NCBI GenBank assembly: GCA_035517655.1
Contig: DATIYJ010000045.1
Location: forward strand, 1-58,937
Direction of reading: 5' to 3'
From: Nitrospiria bacterium
Lineage (GTDB): Bacteria > Nitrospirota > Nitrospiria > JACQBZ01
Length of the DNA: 58,937 nucleotides
Made by a program: the position numbers and the translations under genes. Positions 37,732-58,880 of the stretch are shown here, in pieces (positions within the stretch are counted from its first letter, which is position 1; each line of letters starts with the position of its first letter). The notes under the pieces were generated by a model. It was not told the DNA's origin, ran no database searches, and worked only from the letters and a program-made list of their open reading frames with translations.

Positions 37732-38180
37732 GCACTGAAGCGGTTCGTAAGCCGAGTTCTGTGCCCCTTGGGATCGCTCCGCCGGGGCGGCGATCATTTC
37801 TCTGGGATCCCGATTACTCGGGACCTCAAGCAACCAACCCGTTCCGCCCGGAATGAATTCGCTTCAGACGGGCCGTCCTAGGGTCCTTGGAGGACCAGGC
37901 GGAACCTATTTGGTCTTGCTCCGAATGGGGTTTGCCGTGCCCCCGCCATCACTGGCGGGGCGGTGAGCTCTTACCTCGCCGTTTCACCCTTGCCCGAATG
38001 CGTCCGAGATGACTGGAGCTCCCCTGCCATCTCTTCCGCACCGTCGGCGGTCTGTTCTCTGTGGCACTTTCCGTCCCCTCGCGAGGCCTGGGCGTTACCC
38101 AGCATCCTGCCCTCTGGAGCTCGGACTTTCCTCACCCCGCGTGCTCGTGCGGGGCGCGATCGCCTGAACCACTTCAGTGC
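37732..38180 (-). ncRNA. rnpB: RNase P RNA, bacterial type A
   Basis: Catalytic RNA of RNase P, which removes the 5' leader of tRNAs. Read on the minus strand, the 9-base P1 helix closes perfectly (38172-38180 with 37732-37740). The highly conserved GAGGAAAGTCCG lies at about 38122-38134. Also present are a GAAACGGCGAGGTAAGAGC-type core segment, CAAATAGG and the 3' segment CAGAACTCGGCTTACG. Length is about 449 bases. A T-rich tract (37722-37728) just past P1 probably ends transcription. The DNA also holds open frames, which are spurious. Confidence 0.95.
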
Positions 38181-51048: not shown

Positions 51049-51185
51049 TTGACTCCCTCCCCTCCGTTTGCTAGCATCACGCCGTCGGATGAATGGAACC
51101 GACGTTCATTGTTTTCCATTGCTGCGCACCGCATTGACCTGGACGGGCATGCCGCTGCCCGGTCCGGACGGTCGAGGGAGTTTCC
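51049..51185 (+). promoter_or_regulatory. Promoter-leader unit, copy 1
   Basis: TTGACT (51049-51054) and TAGCAT (51072-51077), spacing 17, followed by a leader of about 100 bases. Its core (51121-51180) has an invariant hairpin GGGCA-TGCCGC-TGCCC (51145-51160) inside a possible outer pair GACC (51136-51139) with GGTC (51170-51173). It ends in a ribosome-binding site (GAGGGAG) before a GTG. The 5' part can also form CGTCGG/CCGACG or AATGGAA/TTCCATT, which overlap and exclude each other. It is 86 percent identical in the core to copy 2. The rest of the gap 51003-51316 holds only the small ORF and the PilZ promoter. Confidence 0.65.
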
Positions 51186-51320
51186 GTGCCCCGGTTTGAA
51201 GCCCGTCTCGTTTATTCGCAACCCGTCCTCCCCGTCGCCCCGTTCCCTTTGCGCATGGAATCGGAAAAAACCCCTGCTATAATTAAAAGGCCGTCAACCA
51301 TTCCAAGGAGAGTTCGATGA
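51186..51320 (+). CDS. Short ORF behind promoter-leader copy 1
   Basis: A 44-codon frame starts at the GTG at 51186, with GAGGGAG five bases upstream, and ends at a TGA overlapping the PilZ ATG (ATGA). Only the first three residues (MPR) match the start of the giant secreted protein behind copy 2. The rest is Pro/Arg-rich with no recognisable domain. It could be a translated leader coupling the upstream RNA to the PilZ gene, or the remains of a gene whose body has been lost. Confidence 0.35.
   Translation: MPRFEARLVYSQPVLPVAPFPLRMESEKTPAIIKRPSTIPRRVR
51278..51283 (+). promoter_or_regulatory. Extended -10 promoter of the PilZ gene
   Basis: TGCTATAAT (the TATAAT at 51278-51283 with an upstream TG) lies about 34 bases before the PilZ ATG, with AAGGAGAG in between. 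No convincing -35 box is seen. The PilZ gene may thus have two promoters. Confidence 0.5.
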
Positions 51321-51847
51321 AGATCCGATTAAAAAAAGCCGGCCGCTACCGGGGATTTCAGGTCGGCATCGACGCGGAGAAGGAGTCGCTCACGGTCGAA
51401 AATCCGGAAGGAAAGCCGGTGGCCAGCCTGGTCCTGGAGGATTTTCTGGAACGGCTGGGGGGCGTGACGCACGACTTCAAGCGGCAGTATCCCCGCCTTG
51501 ATCTTGGGACCCACGTCAATTATCACGACGCGGACGGCCGCCTCTGCGAAGCGATCGCCAGCACCCTCGGCGGCGGCGGCCTTTTCATCGAACAGTTCAG
51601 CCCGCAGCCCGCGGGGACGCAGATGCGGCTTGAGATTCACCTGCCGGCCTCGAGCAAGGTCATTCCGGCCGAGGGCAAAGTGGTCTGGGTCCGCAAAAAT
51701 ATTCTGGAAAAGTTCTTCTATCCCGGCATGGGACTTCAGTTCACCTCGATTTCCGATAAAAACCGCGCGGAGATCCTCCAGTTCATTCACAAGTTCAACC
51801 GGCAAAGGGGGCTTCATGAGCCCCAACCGGAGGGCATGCCGTTTTGA
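51317..51847 (+). CDS. PilZ domain c-di-GMP receptor-like protein
   Basis: Cytoplasmic protein of 176 residues. A short N-terminal domain (residues 1-55) precedes the PilZ domain, which begins with the c-di-GMP motif RxxxR in KRQYPRLDL. It continues with IASTLGGGGLFIEQF (the second motif, D/NxSxxG, is degenerate at its first position), then GKVVWVRKN and FYPGMGLQFTSI. It belongs to the class with TIGR02266-like ends. Binding of c-di-GMP is likely from RxxxR but not certain. It is framed by the two promoter-leader units. Confidence 0.85.
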   Translation: MKIRLKKAGRYRGFQVGIDAEKESLTVENPEGKPVASLVLEDFLERLGGVTHDFKRQYPRLDLGTHVNYHDADGRLCEAIASTLGGGGLFIEQFSPQPAGTQMRLEIHLPASSKVIPAEGKVVWVRKNILEKFFYPGMGLQFTSISDKNRAEILQFIHKFNRQRGLHEPQPEGMPF

Positions 51848-51911
51848 AAACCTTCGTCGTAAACGGGCGACGCGCCATTGTCGCCGCTCTCGGGCGTACG
51901 CCAAAAACCCC

Positions 51912-52052
51912 TTGACACGGGCCGATCCCTTTGATAGCATCGCGCCGTCAGAAGAAGTAAGATCTGCATCTATAAATCCACCGTAACGCTGCGCACCGCG
52001 TCGACTTAGGCGGGCATGCCACTGCCCGATCCGAACGGTCGAAGGAGTGATC
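51912..52052 (+). promoter_or_regulatory. Promoter-leader unit, copy 2
   Basis: TTGACA (51912-51917) and TAGCAT (51935-51940), spacing 17, then a leader of about 106 bases. The core (51988-52046) matches copy 1 without gaps; all nine core differences are transitions. The hairpin GGGCA-TGCCAC-TGCCC lies at 52012-52026, and GACT (52003-52006) can pair with GGTC (52037-52040) through a G-U pair where copy 1 has G-C. AAGGAG follows directly, then a GTG at 52053. I do not recognise it as a known riboswitch. Confidence 0.65.
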
Positions 52053-55000
52053 GTGCCCCGGCTTCCAAACGCACCGCTGTCAATTTTATCCCGCCCCACC
52101 CAAACGCTTCCTCATCGATCGCATCGGCGGAACCGTGTCCTCCCCATCCCTGCGTTCGGCTTTATCCTCCTAGCTGTTTTGATCAGCCCCGGCCTTTCCA
52201 GGGCCCACGACGAAGATCACGACGGGGCCGTCCGTCCGATCCTTGAATGCGTGACCCCCATGGCCGACGGAAGCTATTCGGCGTTGTTCGGGTTTAAGAA
52301 TGAGAACGCCTTCACCGTTAAGATTCCAGTTGGATCGAACAACAAGTTTTCGCCGTCGCCCGTCAATCGCGGGCAGACGACAGCCTTCAAACCGGGCCGG
52401 ATCGTCGGGGCGTTTCGGGTTTCGTTCAACGGTTCCAATCTGGTTTGGACGTTGGAAGGACCGGATGACGACCGCCGCACCGCCACGGCTTCTTCAAAAT
52501 CGACCCGCTGCGCCAATCAAGCGCCTCATGCCGCGAATGATACCGCCGGCACGGTTCAAGGTGTATCGGTCACGGTCCAGGTACTGGCAAACGACTCCGA
52601 TCCGGAGGGAACCGCGCTGACCGTGGCCGCGGTCGGTACCCCTGGCCACGGTTCCACAGTCATCAACGCAGACAACACCGTCGCCTATTATCCGGTCTCC
52701 ACCTTCAGCGGGACGGACACGTTCAGCTATACGGCGCGTGACGCTGGCGGAGCCACCGGTACGGCGACGGTTACAGTGACCGTGACCGCCGATACAACCC
52801 CGCCGACGATTACTCCGACCGCCGCGCCTACGCCGAACGCGAATGGCTGGAATAACGCCGATGTGACGGTGAGTTTCACCTGCTCTGATTCCGGCAGCGG
52901 CGTGGCGAACTGCCCGGCGTCCATCACTGTCGTTACTCAAGGAACGAATCAGCTCGCAAGCGGTACGGCGAGCGACCTTGCAGGAAATACGGCCACCGCC
53001 CATATGGCTGTCAATATTGATAAGACCCAGCCGCTTATCACTATCACATCCCCTCAGAATGAGGCGGTCCTCAACGTCTCCAAACCCGGGATCTCGGTTC
53101 TATTTTCAGATGAAATCTCCGATATGGATGCGTCGACGGTTCATCTTTCTCTTGACGGTTTGGATGTCACTTCCGACGCGTTGATCACGGCATCCGGCCT
53201 GACTTACACCCCTAAAACAACCCTTGCGGACGGCTCCCATTCAGTCCTTGTGTCCGCTACGGACAAAGCAAATAATACGGGAAGCTCGTCGGCCACATTT
53301 ACCACAAAGACAAGGACAAGACCTTTTATATTCCCCGAACCGGGATTTGATGCCGGAAGTTATAAAGATAGCAACAGTGCTTATAACGGACCTATGAAGG
53401 TTTCAGACATTAACAAGGACGGCATCCCGGACGTGGTCTTGGTCAACAACGGTGGTTCCGGATTTGGTCACAGCAGCAAGATCTCCGTGATCTTGGGCAA
53501 GGGAGACGGCGGTTTTCAAAACCCCGTCTCCTTCGGCGAGCTGAGCGGAGCCCCCGACACCGGATATGACGATATCGTGGCAGAGGACTTTAACAGCGAC
53601 GCAATCCCGGACCTGGCCTTGACGGTTTCTCTCTCAAATAACCGGCATGAACTTCTCCTGTTCACCGGTAACGGCGACGGGACGTTTACAACGGGACCGA
53701 GTTATACCCTCAACGCCCCGGGAAGGATTTTAACGGGAATGTTCGATGCCGATTCGTATGTCGATACCGCCATTGCGGATCAAAACGGCGCCGTCCGTCT
53801 CTTCTACGGGATGGGTGACGGCTCTTTTAGCAACCCCGTGATGGTCTGGAGCGCCGACGCGGGCTCGGGGCTTACGGAGGCGGTCGCTTCCGATTTCAAT
53901 CACGACGGTCTGGCCGATATCGGGTTGATTTTAGGAGACGGTTCGGGCGGTCACGAACTTTTGGTGTTGCTGAATAAAGACAACGGCGCATTCCAGTCTT
54001 CCACCGTCCTTCCGTGGGACGACAGCGTCTACCTATCAAACCTAACCGTCGGAGATCTCAATGGAGATGGTTTCCCCGATATTTTCATGATGAAAGACAA
54101 CCCTTATTCCCTCCGGCCGGATTTGATCGTCTTCATAAATGACGGAAGCGGGAATTTTCAAGAGCCTCGAGTTGATAGCCCCGGGCTGGTGATCCCTTCA
54201 AACAACTATTCACTCCTGGGCGGTCGAACGGTCGAGTTCACCGATTTGAATGGCGATCGGAAGTTGGACCTTCTGATCGCATATCTTGGCACGGCATTCA
54301 CATTTTTAGGAAACGGCGACGGGACCTTTCAGCCCCCTTCGGAATTTAGCACCGACGGCGGTTCGATGAATATCGGGGATTTTGATCAGGATGGAGCCCA
54401 GGACATCATTACAGTAGGAAGTTTCGATATTTTTATGCTCTTTGGTCGTGGCGACGGGGGTTTTATTGATCGAGTAGAAATTCCAACGACTGAAGCGATC
54501 TTTGGCATTGTGTCGGCGGATCTTGACGGAGATCATACCCCGGATCTTGTTCTCTCGGGAAACGGTTTTGTCTCTTTATTTTCTACGGTGCTGAACAGAG
54601 GAAATACCTGGATCGGAAATGACATCAGCCCTCCTTTTCAAGTGGATCGCACCTATCGCACGGGAATCGATCCCGTGGCCGTAAAGAGGGGGGACTTGAA
54701 CAAAGACGGACATCCGGATCTTGTGGTTGCGAATGACTTATCGAATGACGTCTCCGTCTTGTTAAACAGCGGGAATGGCGACCTCAACGCGCCCGTTTCA
54801 TATCCGGTCGGGTCGGCCCCCGCCTTTATCGCCCTGGAGGATCTCAACGGGGACGGCAACCCGGATATCGTCACGGTCAATAGCGGTTCAAATGATGTCT
54901 CCATCCTCCTGGGCAACGGGGACGGCAGCTTTCAAGCCCAGAAGATTTTTACCGCCGGACCGAATCCCAAGAGCCTGGCGATTGCGGATGTCAACGGCGA

Positions 55001-58000
55001 TGGTCATCCGGATATCGTGGCGACGGATTACGATCCATCCGTCAATTACGTTTCGATTCTTTTGGGCAACGGCGATGGGACATTTCAGCCTTACTATCCA
55101 TGGAACACCATCGGCCGCTTCCCTATCGCGATTCAAACGGGCGACTTCAACAGAGACGGCCTTGCGGATTTCGCCGTGGTCAATTACTTATATTATTCAT
55201 CGTACGGGTTTCAAGCCAGCATGGTCACCCTTTTACTTGGAAAAGGAGACGGCTCGTTCGACGAAAAAATCGCCTATCAATCAAGCAATGTCTTTGTCTT
55301 CGATGCCATTTTAAGCGAGGACCTGAACGGGGATGGCAAACAGGATTTCATTGTTTTTGATTACGCGGCTTCCTCCGCGTGGGTGTTCTTAAATGACGGA
55401 TACGGCCAGTTGGATGAGATGATACCCGTCGGGGGCTTGGAGGGCCTCTTATTATACGGAGGTCTCTCGGCAACCCTCGATGATTTAAACCATGACGGCC
55501 ATCTTGATTTGCTTGTGGGAGGCGGGAGTTCTCTGCAGGTCTGGCTGGGGCAGGGGGACGGGACTTTTGCAAGAAGCTCATCCATCGGTGGATGGGAAGA
55601 TGTGGCGTCGGTGGAAATGGCGGATTTGAACGGGGACGGTGTCCCGGACATCGCACTCGTGGATCATAACAACCTGTCGTTAATTCCCGGAAAGGGGAAT
55701 GGAACCTTCGCCGGACAGGCTATCATCAATCAGGAGGCGGGCGTTTCTGAGATTTCAGGCATGGCCTCGGCGGACTTTAACGGCGACCGCAATCAGGATA
55801 TCGTTCTGAGTGACGCTTTCTACAATCCGACGGGCGGCACACACGGCTATCCGAGGATCGAGCTCTACTGGGGGACGGGAGATAATACATTCAGACGGGG
55901 TCCGACACTGCAGACCTCAACTCTGCCCAATCGGGGCATTGTCGCAGCCGATATAAATCAGGACGGCCTTGTCGATATCGTGCTGGCTCAGGACCCGGGC
56001 GTGATGGTCTATATCAACAACGGGGATGAGACGTTCAGAGCACCCATCTCTTATACCATCAGTACAAGGTCGGTCGGCATACGGGTTGCCGACATCAATC
56101 AGGATAACCGTCTCGATATTGTCAGTCTGGATTCGACACCGATCAGCGGCCATCCCGGAGAGTTTTCATCGAGCCTCTCGATTCATACCGGAAACGGGGA
56201 TGGAACATTTCAGCCTAACGGGACCATCCTGTTGGATCCGTTCGAGCCGTCCGATCTCCTTGTGCGGGATTTCAACGGAGACGGCTACCCGGATTTGGCC
56301 GTCGGCATGAACTTGGGCCATACACTTAGAATCTACCTCAACAATGGAAACGGGACCTTCAACGACCCGATGAGCTATGAGGTCGGGGTCGAACAGGGGA
56401 CTTTGATCGCACAGGATTTCAATCAGGACGGTTTCATGGATCTGGTCGTCGGAGATTTGGAGTCCATAAACCTTTTGCTCGGCAATGGGAATGGGACGTT
56501 CCAACCCCCCGCCGCCTACGGATCGAACGGGCAAATGGTATCCACGGACTTTAACCTGGACGGCCGCATGGATATCGCCGTAGGTTCGGGCGGCACGGTC
56601 AAGCTCCTATTAAATCAGCTGCCCGCGTTATACACGCCCCCGTCCCCTCCTCAAAATCTTTCCGGCGCGGCCGGGGACGGCAGTGTCTCCCTGATCTGGG
56701 CCGCAAGTCCGGAAGCCGATCTAGCGGGTTACAATCTGTATCGAAGTCTTTATTCCGGGGGCGGTTATACAAAAATCAATGGCGCGCCGATCACCTCGCT
56801 TTCATACATCGACACCTCGGTCACGAATGGTCAACTCTATTTTTATACCGTTGCGGCTGTGAACACGCAGGGAGAAGAGAGCTCGCTTTCAAGCAAAATC
56901 AAGCTCACTCCCCATCCGGCCGATACGGCGGCTCCGTTGATCAAGATAACCATCCCGCTCAACGGCGGGATCACGGTCGACCCGCTTTTGTTCGTCTCGG
57001 GCACGGTTGACGATGTCGGCGCCGTGGTCACCGTCAACGGTCAATCGGCGGCTGTCCAGACGCAAAGCGGGACATTTACGGCCAATAATATCCCTTTAAA
57101 CCCGGGCATGAACACCGTCGCCGCCACGGCCGTGGATTCGGCCGGGAACCGTTCATCGGATACCGTAACGGTCACATACGCTCTTGTCGCAGGAATGACG
57201 GGCACCATTCAAGATGCCGCGACAGGGGAACCCGTCTCGGGAGCAACGGTTTCCGTGCAAGATGCCGGGGGAATCCAAACCGTGACGACCGGGTTAGACG
57301 GCCTTTACATGTTTTTGCGACTGGTTCCGGGTGAGGTAACACTCACCGTGACGCCTTCCGTAAATATTTATCAAACCACAACCCTGACTAAGACGCTCTC
57401 ACCCGGACTGGTCATGACGTTGAATATCCCGCTCGACCTCCGCCCGGCGATACTGACCGGCACGGTTTATGACTCATTTCCCGTGGTCGATAATCCAAAA
57501 CCGTTCCTGCGGGTCTACAATCCGATTGCCGGAGCAACCGTGTCGGTCACGGACGGCAAGAAAACCCAGGCCGTTGTGACCGACGTCAGCGGCAAATATC
57601 GGGTCGAGAACATCACGCCCTATGAGATAACGGTCACCGTCGCGAAGGCCGTGTACGAAACCTTTATTCAGGACCAATTCATAAGTCCCGGGCAAACAGA
57701 AGGCATCGATTATCTTCTGGACAAGCTCCCCCCCGCCGCTCCCACCGGACTGGTTGCCTCGCCGATTATCCGAGGCGCGGCGCTGAAATGGAATCCGAAC
57801 ACGGAGAGCGACCTCCTGGGCTACAATGTTTACCGGGCAACAACGTCCGGCGGCGATTATTCCCTGCTCAATACAGCCCCCGTGACATCTCCTTCATACA
57901 TGGCCGGCGGTCTGGCCGGCGGAACGACTTACTACTATGTGGTCACGGCGATCAATACATCGGGAAGTGAGAGCGGTTATTCGGCGGAAGTCTCGGCCAC

Positions 58001-58880
58001 CACGCCTTCACCCACGCTCCCCATCAGCATCACGTCCCCGGCCAATGGAACGAATGTCAACGCCTCCAGTGTCATAATAACAGGGACAGTCGATGCTACA
58101 CTTAATGAGATCGGTGTGGTGATTGAAGTGAATGGGCCAGATGGGATAGAGTCTGTTCCGGCGCACGTCAACCGGAACTCCTTTTCCGCCATGGTTCCCT
58201 TGCAGGCGGAAACGAACGTGATAACAGCCGTAGCCGTTAATCCGGGGGGCGCCTATGGAGAGGCGAGCATCACGGTCGATGCATCTATTCCGTCACAGGA
58301 TGTACTGCTCATAGCCAATCCCGAAAGCGGCGTGCCCGATAGCACAACAGGGCTCTTCTCGGTGACACTTCGAGTCGAAACAACCCTCACGAATCCGGTG
58401 AGTCAATATCGGTGGGATTTGGATGGGAATGGAGTAATCGATCAAGTCGGCGCAACGCTAACCAAGGTAACGGCCCAATATCAGGCGGTAGGAATCTATT
58501 ATCCAACCGTGTCCGTCACGGATACAAAAGGCAACACCTACACGGCCGCGACAATCGTCAATGTGTTATCCCGAGACGAACTGGATGCGTTGTTGAAGAG
58601 CAAGTGGGAGGGGATGAAGACAGCGTTGATCAACGGGGACATCGAAGGAGCGATCGGTTATTTTGCTGAATCATCTCAAGAGCGCTACCGAGGAATCTTT
58701 AATGCAGTTCAGTCCCAATTGTCAGACATGGTCGCGGGTATGAATACGATCCAGTTCATCCATGCAGACAATGGTATCGCCAAATTTCGGATCCGACGGC
58801 AAGAAGCAGCTGGCGAAATCACTTATTACATCTTTTTCGTGATGGATCAGGATGGAATTTGGAGAATCCAGCAGTTCTGA
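52053..58880 (+). CDS. Giant secreted FG-GAP/VCBS, fibronectin III and PKD multidomain protein
   Basis: Exported protein of 2275 residues. The start is the GTG at 52053 (AAGGAG five bases upstream) rather than the in-frame GTG at 52047. The signal sequence has a long basic N-region, then AFGFILLAVLISPGLSRA. In order: a cadherin-like Ig domain (about 160-246), two more Ig-like segments, 21 FG-GAP/VCBS repeats with calcium-binding DxNxDGxxD loops (about 450-1520, enough for three seven-bladed propellers), Fn3, Ig-like, two carboxypeptidase-regulatory-like domains, Fn3, Ig-like, PKD (about 2113-2172) and an NTF2-like C-terminal domain. No cell-wall anchor or passenger-barrel is visible. Probably an extracellular adhesin or a carrier for another protein. 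Confidence 0.85.
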   Translation: MPRLPNAPLSILSRPTQTLPHRSHRRNRVLPIPAFGFILLAVLISPGLSRAHDEDHDGAVRPILECVTPMADGSYSALFGFKNENAFTVKIPVGSNNKFSPSPVNRGQTTAFKPGRIVGAFRVSFNGSNLVWTLEGPDDDRRTATASSKSTRCANQAPHAANDTAGTVQGVSVTVQVLANDSDPEGTALTVAAVGTPGHGSTVINADNTVAYYPVSTFSGTDTFSYTARDAGGATGTATVTVTVTADTTPPTITPTAAPTPNANGWNNADVTVSFTCSDSGSGVANCPASITVVTQGTNQLASGTASDLAGNTATAHMAVNIDKTQPLITITSPQNEAVLNVSKPGISVLFSDEISDMDASTVHLSLDGLDVTSDALITASGLTYTPKTTLADGSHSVLVSATDKANNTGSSSATFTTKTRTRPFIFPEPGFDAGSYKDSNSAYNGPMKVSDINKDGIPDVVLVNNGGSGFGHSSKISVILGKGDGGFQNPVSFGELSGAPDTGYDDIVAEDFNSDAIPDLALTVSLSNNRHELLLFTGNGDGTFTTGPSYTLNAPGRILTGMFDADSYVDTAIADQNGAVRLFYGMGDGSFSNPVMVWSADAGSGLTEAVASDFNHDGLADIGLILGDGSGGHELLVLLNKDNGAFQSSTVLPWDDSVYLSNLTVGDLNGDGFPDIFMMKDNPYSLRPDLIVFINDGSGNFQEPRVDSPGLVIPSNNYSLLGGRTVEFTDLNGDRKLDLLIAYLGTAFTFLGNGDGTFQPPSEFSTDGGSMNIGDFDQDGAQDIITVGSFDIFMLFGRGDGGFIDRVEIPTTEAIFGIVSADLDGDHTPDLVLSGNGFVSLFSTVLNRGNTWIGNDISPPFQVDRTYRTGIDPVAVKRGDLNKDGHPDLVVANDLSNDVSVLLNSGNGDLNAPVSYPVGSAPAFIALEDLNGDGNPDIVTVNSGSNDVSILLGNGDGSFQAQKIFTAGPNPKSLAIADVNGDGHPDIVATDYDPSVNYVSILLGNGDGTFQPYYPWNTIGRFPIAIQTGDFNRDGLADFAVVNYLYYSSYGFQASMVTLLLGKGDGSFDEKIAYQSSNVFVFDAILSEDLNGDGKQDFIVFDYAASSAWVFLNDGYGQLDEMIPVGGLEGLLLYGGLSATLDDLNHDGHLDLLVGGGSSLQVWLGQGDGTFARSSSIGGWEDVASVEMADLNGDGVPDIALVDHNNLSLIPGKGNGTFAGQAIINQEAGVSEISGMASADFNGDRNQDIVLSDAFYNPTGGTHGYPRIELYWGTGDNTFRRGPTLQTSTLPNRGIVAADINQDGLVDIVLAQDPGVMVYINNGDETFRAPISYTISTRSVGIRVADINQDNRLDIVSLDSTPISGHPGEFSSSLSIHTGNGDGTFQPNGTILLDPFEPSDLLVRDFNGDGYPDLAVGMNLGHTLRIYLNNGNGTFNDPMSYEVGVEQGTLIAQDFNQDGFMDLVVGDLESINLLLGNGNGTFQPPAAYGSNGQMVSTDFNLDGRMDIAVGSGGTVKLLLNQLPALYTPPSPPQNLSGAAGDGSVSLIWAASPEADLAGYNLYRSLYSGGGYTKINGAPITSLSYIDTSVTNGQLYFYTVAAVNTQGEESSLSSKIKLTPHPADTAAPLIKITIPLNGGITVDPLLFVSGTVDDVGAVVTVNGQSAAVQTQSGTFTANNIPLNPGMNTVAATAVDSAGNRSSDTVTVTYALVAGMTGTIQDAATGEPVSGATVSVQDAGGIQTVTTGLDGLYMFLRLVPGEVTLTVTPSVNIYQTTTLTKTLSPGLVMTLNIPLDLRPAILTGTVYDSFPVVDNPKPFLRVYNPIAGATVSVTDGKKTQAVVTDVSGKYRVENITPYEITVTVAKAVYETFIQDQFISPGQTEGIDYLLDKLPPAAPTGLVASPIIRGAALKWNPNTESDLLGYNVYRATTSGGDYSLLNTAPVTSPSYMAGGLAGGTTYYYVVTAINTSGSESGYSAEVSATTPSPTLPISITSPANGTNVNASSVIITGTVDATLNEIGVVIEVNGPDGIESVPAHVNRNSFSAMVPLQAETNVITAVAVNPGGAYGEASITVDASIPSQDVLLIANPESGVPDSTTGLFSVTLRVETTLTNPVSQYRWDLDGNGVIDQVGATLTKVTAQYQAVGIYYPTVSVTDTKGNTYTAATIVNVLSRDELDALLKSKWEGMKTALINGDIEGAIGYFAESSQERYRGIFNAVQSQLSDMVAGMNTIQFIHADNGIAKFRIRRQEAAGEITYYIFFVMDQDGIWRIQQF

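Follow-up and report, generated by a model that had tools for sequence, protein, structure and literature searches.

What is the relation between two similar promoter-leader units that lie in the same stretch of DNA, one upstream of a gene for a PilZ-domain protein and the other in front of a gene for a giant exported protein? The two genes are not homologous. We examined these units in a 58,937-nt contig of a Nitrospiria bacterium (DATIYJ010000045.1), here called the window; all window coordinates are on the forward strand unless marked (-). A sequence-only reading of the window had taken the units for a structured, translation-controlling leader duplicated together with its promoter.

Two promoter-leader units

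Unit A occupies 51049-51188 and unit B 51912-52055. The promoter of unit A (51049-51077) is TTGACT-17-TAGCAT with an extended -10 TG, and is alignable in seven copies of the unit; that of unit B (51912-51940) is TTGACA-17-TAGCAT. A consensus scan of the region found two sigma-70-like sites against 0.4 expected, exactly these two, in agreement with the common promoter TTGAC[T/A]-17-TAGCAT that had been proposed. The exact promoter pattern occurs six times across seven genomes of the family, five times in units and once at a site without the core; the control gave zero. The core-less site (L147, G005:C70:56567) lies 1.9 kb upstream of the unit on the same contig, before a gene for a FecR/DUF6600 exported protein.

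The conserved RNA core, of 77 nt, spans 51121-51197 in unit A (covariance model match 99.2 bits) and 51988-52064 in unit B (93.5 bits). Between 51121-51188 and 51988-52055 the gap-free alignment of the cores covers 68 nt and shows 12 differences. In a search of the whole genome the match between A and B has E = 1.2e-16, and there is no third copy. The gap-free core of about 60 bases described before thus stands, with nine differences in the first 61 nt. These nine are all transitions, as had been claimed for the entire core, but the last stretch before the GTG adds three more differences, two of them transversions. A and B have the same hairpin arms, GGGCA/TGCCC, and the reported change of an outer pair from C-G to U-G is seen in helix P1 (below). 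The core was rejected as coding sequence, its substitutions showing no codon periodicity (9, 9 and 8 by codon position).

Identity between copies is 78% in the promoter and 78% in the core, 49% in the spacer, 38% in upstream DNA and 42% after the core, with 29-36% in shuffled controls. Promoter and core are therefore kept as a unit while the intervening DNA drifts, and the divergence noted earlier between promoter and core is borne out. Conservation runs past the start codon into the first codons. Four-fold sites of the PilZ gene are 52-58% identical between unit A's locus and the G003 and G005 orthologues; the cores of the same loci are 81% identical to A.

Copies in related genomes

A DNA search of 98 relatives, followed by covariance models, found six further copies in three relatives from the window's family, for a total of eight copies in four genomes and three genera. 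Those at G005:C36 and G003:C6 lie upstream of PilZ orthologues, and those at G003:C80 and G002:C48 upstream of giant exported proteins. Another (L009, G005:C70:58456-58611) is a decayed duplicate of the PilZ leader, in which the GTG has become GTC and a PilZ coding remnant follows. The last (L061/L130, G005:C46:30-345) precedes a short ORF of 84 codons, ended by an in-frame TAG beyond which the frame stays open, possibly a pseudogene. The unit is thus found at the PilZ gene in three genera (plus the decayed duplicate), at the giant exported protein in three species, and at one other ORF. It is absent upstream of PilZ in G001 and G002, and upstream of the giant proteins in G004 and G005.

Covariance model R1 found no copies beyond the window's family in the rest of 396 genomes of the phylum, and permissive scoring with model R2 in 39 relatives found none beyond the eight; both scans also gave weak matches, and those inspected sit in apparent coding sequence. 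A pattern scan of genome contigs returned 37 stretches, among which the only units were known Nitrospirota copies and one on a contig (L101, JACPOZ010000065.1) assigned to a gammaproteobacterial groundwater MAG. Its covariance model score equals that of the G003 copy and its gene start is near-identical; this is probably a misbinned Nitrospirota contig. No unit was found in IMG/VR, plasmids or phages, and a protein scan of genome contigs gave no match.

Other species have the unit in both positions, before PilZ and before the giant protein, so a simple duplication confined to this genome is not its history. The idea that the leader travels with its promoter is supported, the two being kept together in other species' copies. 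The covariance-model search in relatives had itself been suggested as a check, to fail if hits were limited to one locus with no covariation; it returned six more copies and compensatory changes. On this comparative evidence the promoter-leader unit is real and conserved, and its occurrence is limited to a single family of groundwater Nitrospirota.

A conserved hairpin next to the Shine-Dalgarno sequence

Comparison of the copies supports a predicted RNA hairpin in the core, with a fold conserved across species. It consists of P1 (6 bp), P2 (up to 4 bp), a 1-nt bulge, P3 (6 bp) and the loop UGCCAC. In unit A the hairpin is at 51134-51175, with P1 at 51134-51139/51170-51175, P2 at 51140-51143/51163-51166, P3 at 51144-51149/51156-51161, the loop at 51150-51155, the bulge at 51162 and an internal loop at 51167-51169. 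In unit B it is at 52001-52042, with P1 at 52001-52006/52037-52042, P2 at 52007-52010/52030-52033 and P3 at 52011-52016/52023-52028. Compensatory changes support both placements: six copies have C-G at P3 pair 27-36, where L018 has G-C and L061 has U-A, and P2 pair 22-42 is A-U, G-U or G-C. P1 varies in seven cells (4 columns), all changed to G-U and none to A-C; outer P2 has six A-C mismatches. The loop UGCCAC and an upstream CACC are conserved in sequence, except that the loop differs in L018 and that A and L011 have single changes.

The Shine-Dalgarno sequence of unit A, GGGAG (51176-51180), adjoins the 3′ end of P1; in unit B the first A of AAGGAG (52042-52047) is the last P1 base. A further helix, P0, is suggested by an upstream GCAC (51126-51129 in A, 51993-51996 in B) complementary to the GUGC that contains the start codon (51186-51189 and 52053-52056). 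Its candidate partners have both changed in L011 (ACAC/GUGU), and the adjacent position shows perfect covariation over the eight copies, being either C/C or U/U, so that the support amounts to one compensatory change and one covarying mismatch. The copy that breaks P0 is the decayed L009. Energy models favour P0 in L010 and L018, and not in most other copies. A hairpin sequestering the Shine-Dalgarno sequence, proposed by RNAalifold, was rejected as not above shuffles.

With hairpin and P0 together, 94.7% of cells are paired, against at most 39% in slid controls, and the covariation score was reached by none of 500 shuffles; for the hairpin alone it was reached by one of 500. These shuffle statistics are inflated by relatedness, since there are only eight sequences, all from one family. 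The folding energy of A or B is no better than that of shuffled sequence, so the evidence for structure comes from comparison. Predicted folds of single copies vary, with P1 and P3 at low probability in B (0.16) and L014 (0.08-0.09) in the alignment's column register. An extended outer helix, GCUG/CGGC, weakened the statistics and was rejected. As expected of a structured cis-regulatory leader, there is a conserved helix with compensatory changes (P1-P3, eight sequences), and it recurs before the non-homologous PilZ and giant-protein genes in several species. The compensatory changes in the six further copies also support the earlier description of a structured, translation-proximal leader.

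The downstream genes

The core had been said to end at a GTG before the PilZ gene. The GTG is there; in unit A it opens not PilZ itself but a leader ORF of 44 codons (51186-51320), whose TGA overlaps the PilZ ATG as ATGA. The PilZ-domain protein (51317-51847, 176 aa; Pfam PF07238, E = 2.8e-11) has orthologues, and the same overlap of leader stop and PilZ start occurs in five of the five genomes with this gene (the window's, G003, G005, G002 and G001, with leader ORFs of 44, 40, 37, 10 and 10 codons). The peptide sequence is hardly conserved. Given the frame, an open frame alone has a chance of 0.2-0.4 per locus, so the argument for translational coupling rests on the repeated frame and overlap. 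The PilZ ATG in G003 has no visible Shine-Dalgarno sequence of its own, which would be consistent with coupling. Known translationally coupled leader ORFs likewise have a stop that overlaps the next ATG, as does this GTG ORF with its TGA; the unit differs from them in its hardly conserved leader peptide and in that the start which opens a leader ORF at PilZ opens the main ORF at the giant protein. The RxxxR motif of PilZ does not vary among five orthologues (RQxPR), and the second c-di-GMP motif looks degenerate. The PilZ genes of G001 and G002 (L020, L021) have a different leader, with a hairpin CATCC-GCGC-GGATG, an SD-like GAGGAAG (G002) or GAAGAAG (G001), and a 10-codon GTG ORF ending at the ATGA.

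The GTG of unit B is the start of the giant exported protein (52053-58880, 2275 aa), which contains 16 FG-GAP_3 stretches along with Ig-like, fn3 and CarboxypepD_reg domains. The G002 giant has the C-terminal 280 aa in common with it, at 33%; five of the seven family genomes encode this C-terminal domain, each of them once. Two homologues, in G005:C17 (L162) and G004:C19 (L163), share a different leader, with a near-consensus promoter TTGACA-17-TATAAT followed by GTGACG(A/C)T(G/T)AACGCCTGG(G/C)AAGG(G/A)ACC and then the ATG. It had no Rfam match, and the likeness could be simple orthology.

Known RNA families

A search of Rfam 15 at gathering score matched neither unit A nor unit B; relaxing the threshold to E<=10 added only weak, unrelated matches that lie outside the cores. 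The covariance model of the c-di-GMP-I riboswitch (RF01051) did not match the units; the earlier reading had remarked that the known conserved bases are not visible. Four c-di-GMP-I riboswitches can be recognised at other places in the genome, and at least one of them lies before exported FN3 proteins; with these ordinary copies present and no match at the units, the earlier guess of c-di-GMP as the signal has no support from the sequence. Nothing beyond gene context ties the element to c-di-GMP. One c-di-GMP-I riboswitch (L135, G000:C10:2679-2770) precedes a gene for an 818-aa protein with a match to the hydrazine synthase alpha middle domain and a weak CXXCH match. Rfam also identified a class A RNase P RNA at window positions 37733-38175 (-).

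The unit resembles orphan or candidate cis-regulatory motifs and riboswitch candidates, for which 104 candidate structured RNAs provide an example set (PMC2864571), in having a fold that is compact and conserved, shows compensatory changes, and sits in the 5′ leaders of functionally linkable, non-homologous genes. It differs in being known from one family and eight copies, without a ligand, and in being outside Rfam 15.

Interpretation

Building on the promoter, the core, its conservation and recurrence before unrelated genes, the compensation in P2 and P3 and the leader-ORF overlap, all drawn from sequence comparison, we consider it probable that the unit combines a promoter with a structured, cis-acting 5′ leader and that this leader governs the initiation of translation in a small regulon, chiefly PilZ and the giant exported protein. 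The most economical reading is that ribosome access is what the unit controls, since the hairpin abuts the Shine-Dalgarno sequence and the start codon has a conserved complement. That the unit is transcribed, regulates rather than acts constitutively, and couples translation is what we infer. Transcription would start just after TAGCAT, and the transcript would fold into the bulged hairpin P1-P2-P3, its 3′ strand ending at the Shine-Dalgarno sequence, while the upstream GCAC could also pair with the start-codon GUGC. A bound protein or small molecule may stabilise or loosen this fold and so set ribosome access; at the PilZ locus, ribosomes would translate the short leader ORF and reinitiate at the overlapping ATGA. 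More tentatively, the unit may represent a new signal-responsive RNA class, either a ligand-binding riboswitch or a dedicated protein-bound leader, that co-regulates PilZ and the giant surface protein alongside the c-di-GMP-I riboswitches of the family.

A hairpin placed immediately before a Shine-Dalgarno sequence can enhance translation or stabilise mRNA. The unit might then be a constitutive leader of this standby or stabilising kind, joined to a strong promoter and copied by duplication without regulatory input, which would fit the lack of a proven switch structure and of support for the SD-sequestering hairpin; we think this rather unlikely, as sequence and not pairing alone is kept in the loop UGCCAC and the upstream CACC, and the units are confined to two main types of gene. 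The P3 compensation would equally preserve a DNA palindrome, and the promoter is conserved alongside, so the core could instead be a transcription factor's operator downstream of the promoter. This is unlikely: on the transcribed strand every changed P1 cell is G-U and A-C does not occur (a chance of about 1 in 16 over 4 columns, if the events are independent), and the element is asymmetric, with its bulge and 3-nt internal loop, adjoins the Shine-Dalgarno sequence and is conserved into the first codons.

PilZ and exported Ig/FN3 proteins are a typical c-di-GMP context, which the unit has in common with RF01051, and exported FN3 proteins at another locus of this genome are themselves preceded by a c-di-GMP-I riboswitch. 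A variant c-di-GMP riboswitch is nonetheless very unlikely, given the Rfam results at E<=10, the normal RF01051 copies in the same genomes, and the smaller size and different layout of the unit, a simple bulged hairpin against the Shine-Dalgarno sequence compared with an 87-nt aptamer. Least credible, to the point of being negligible, is a CsrA/RsmA-type binding leader. The GGA in the Shine-Dalgarno region and the gene types are typical of such leaders, but the hairpin loop has no GGA and CsrA (PF02599), found in other families of the class, was detected in none of the seven family genomes, which contradicts this explanation unless an unrecognised CsrA exists.

The recurrence of the regulatory leader that we favour before two unrelated genes makes it a ready test system for finding its trigger. 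If our reading is true, uncultured groundwater Nitrospirota would possess an uncatalogued RNA element that connects expression of a giant exported protein with a PilZ protein.
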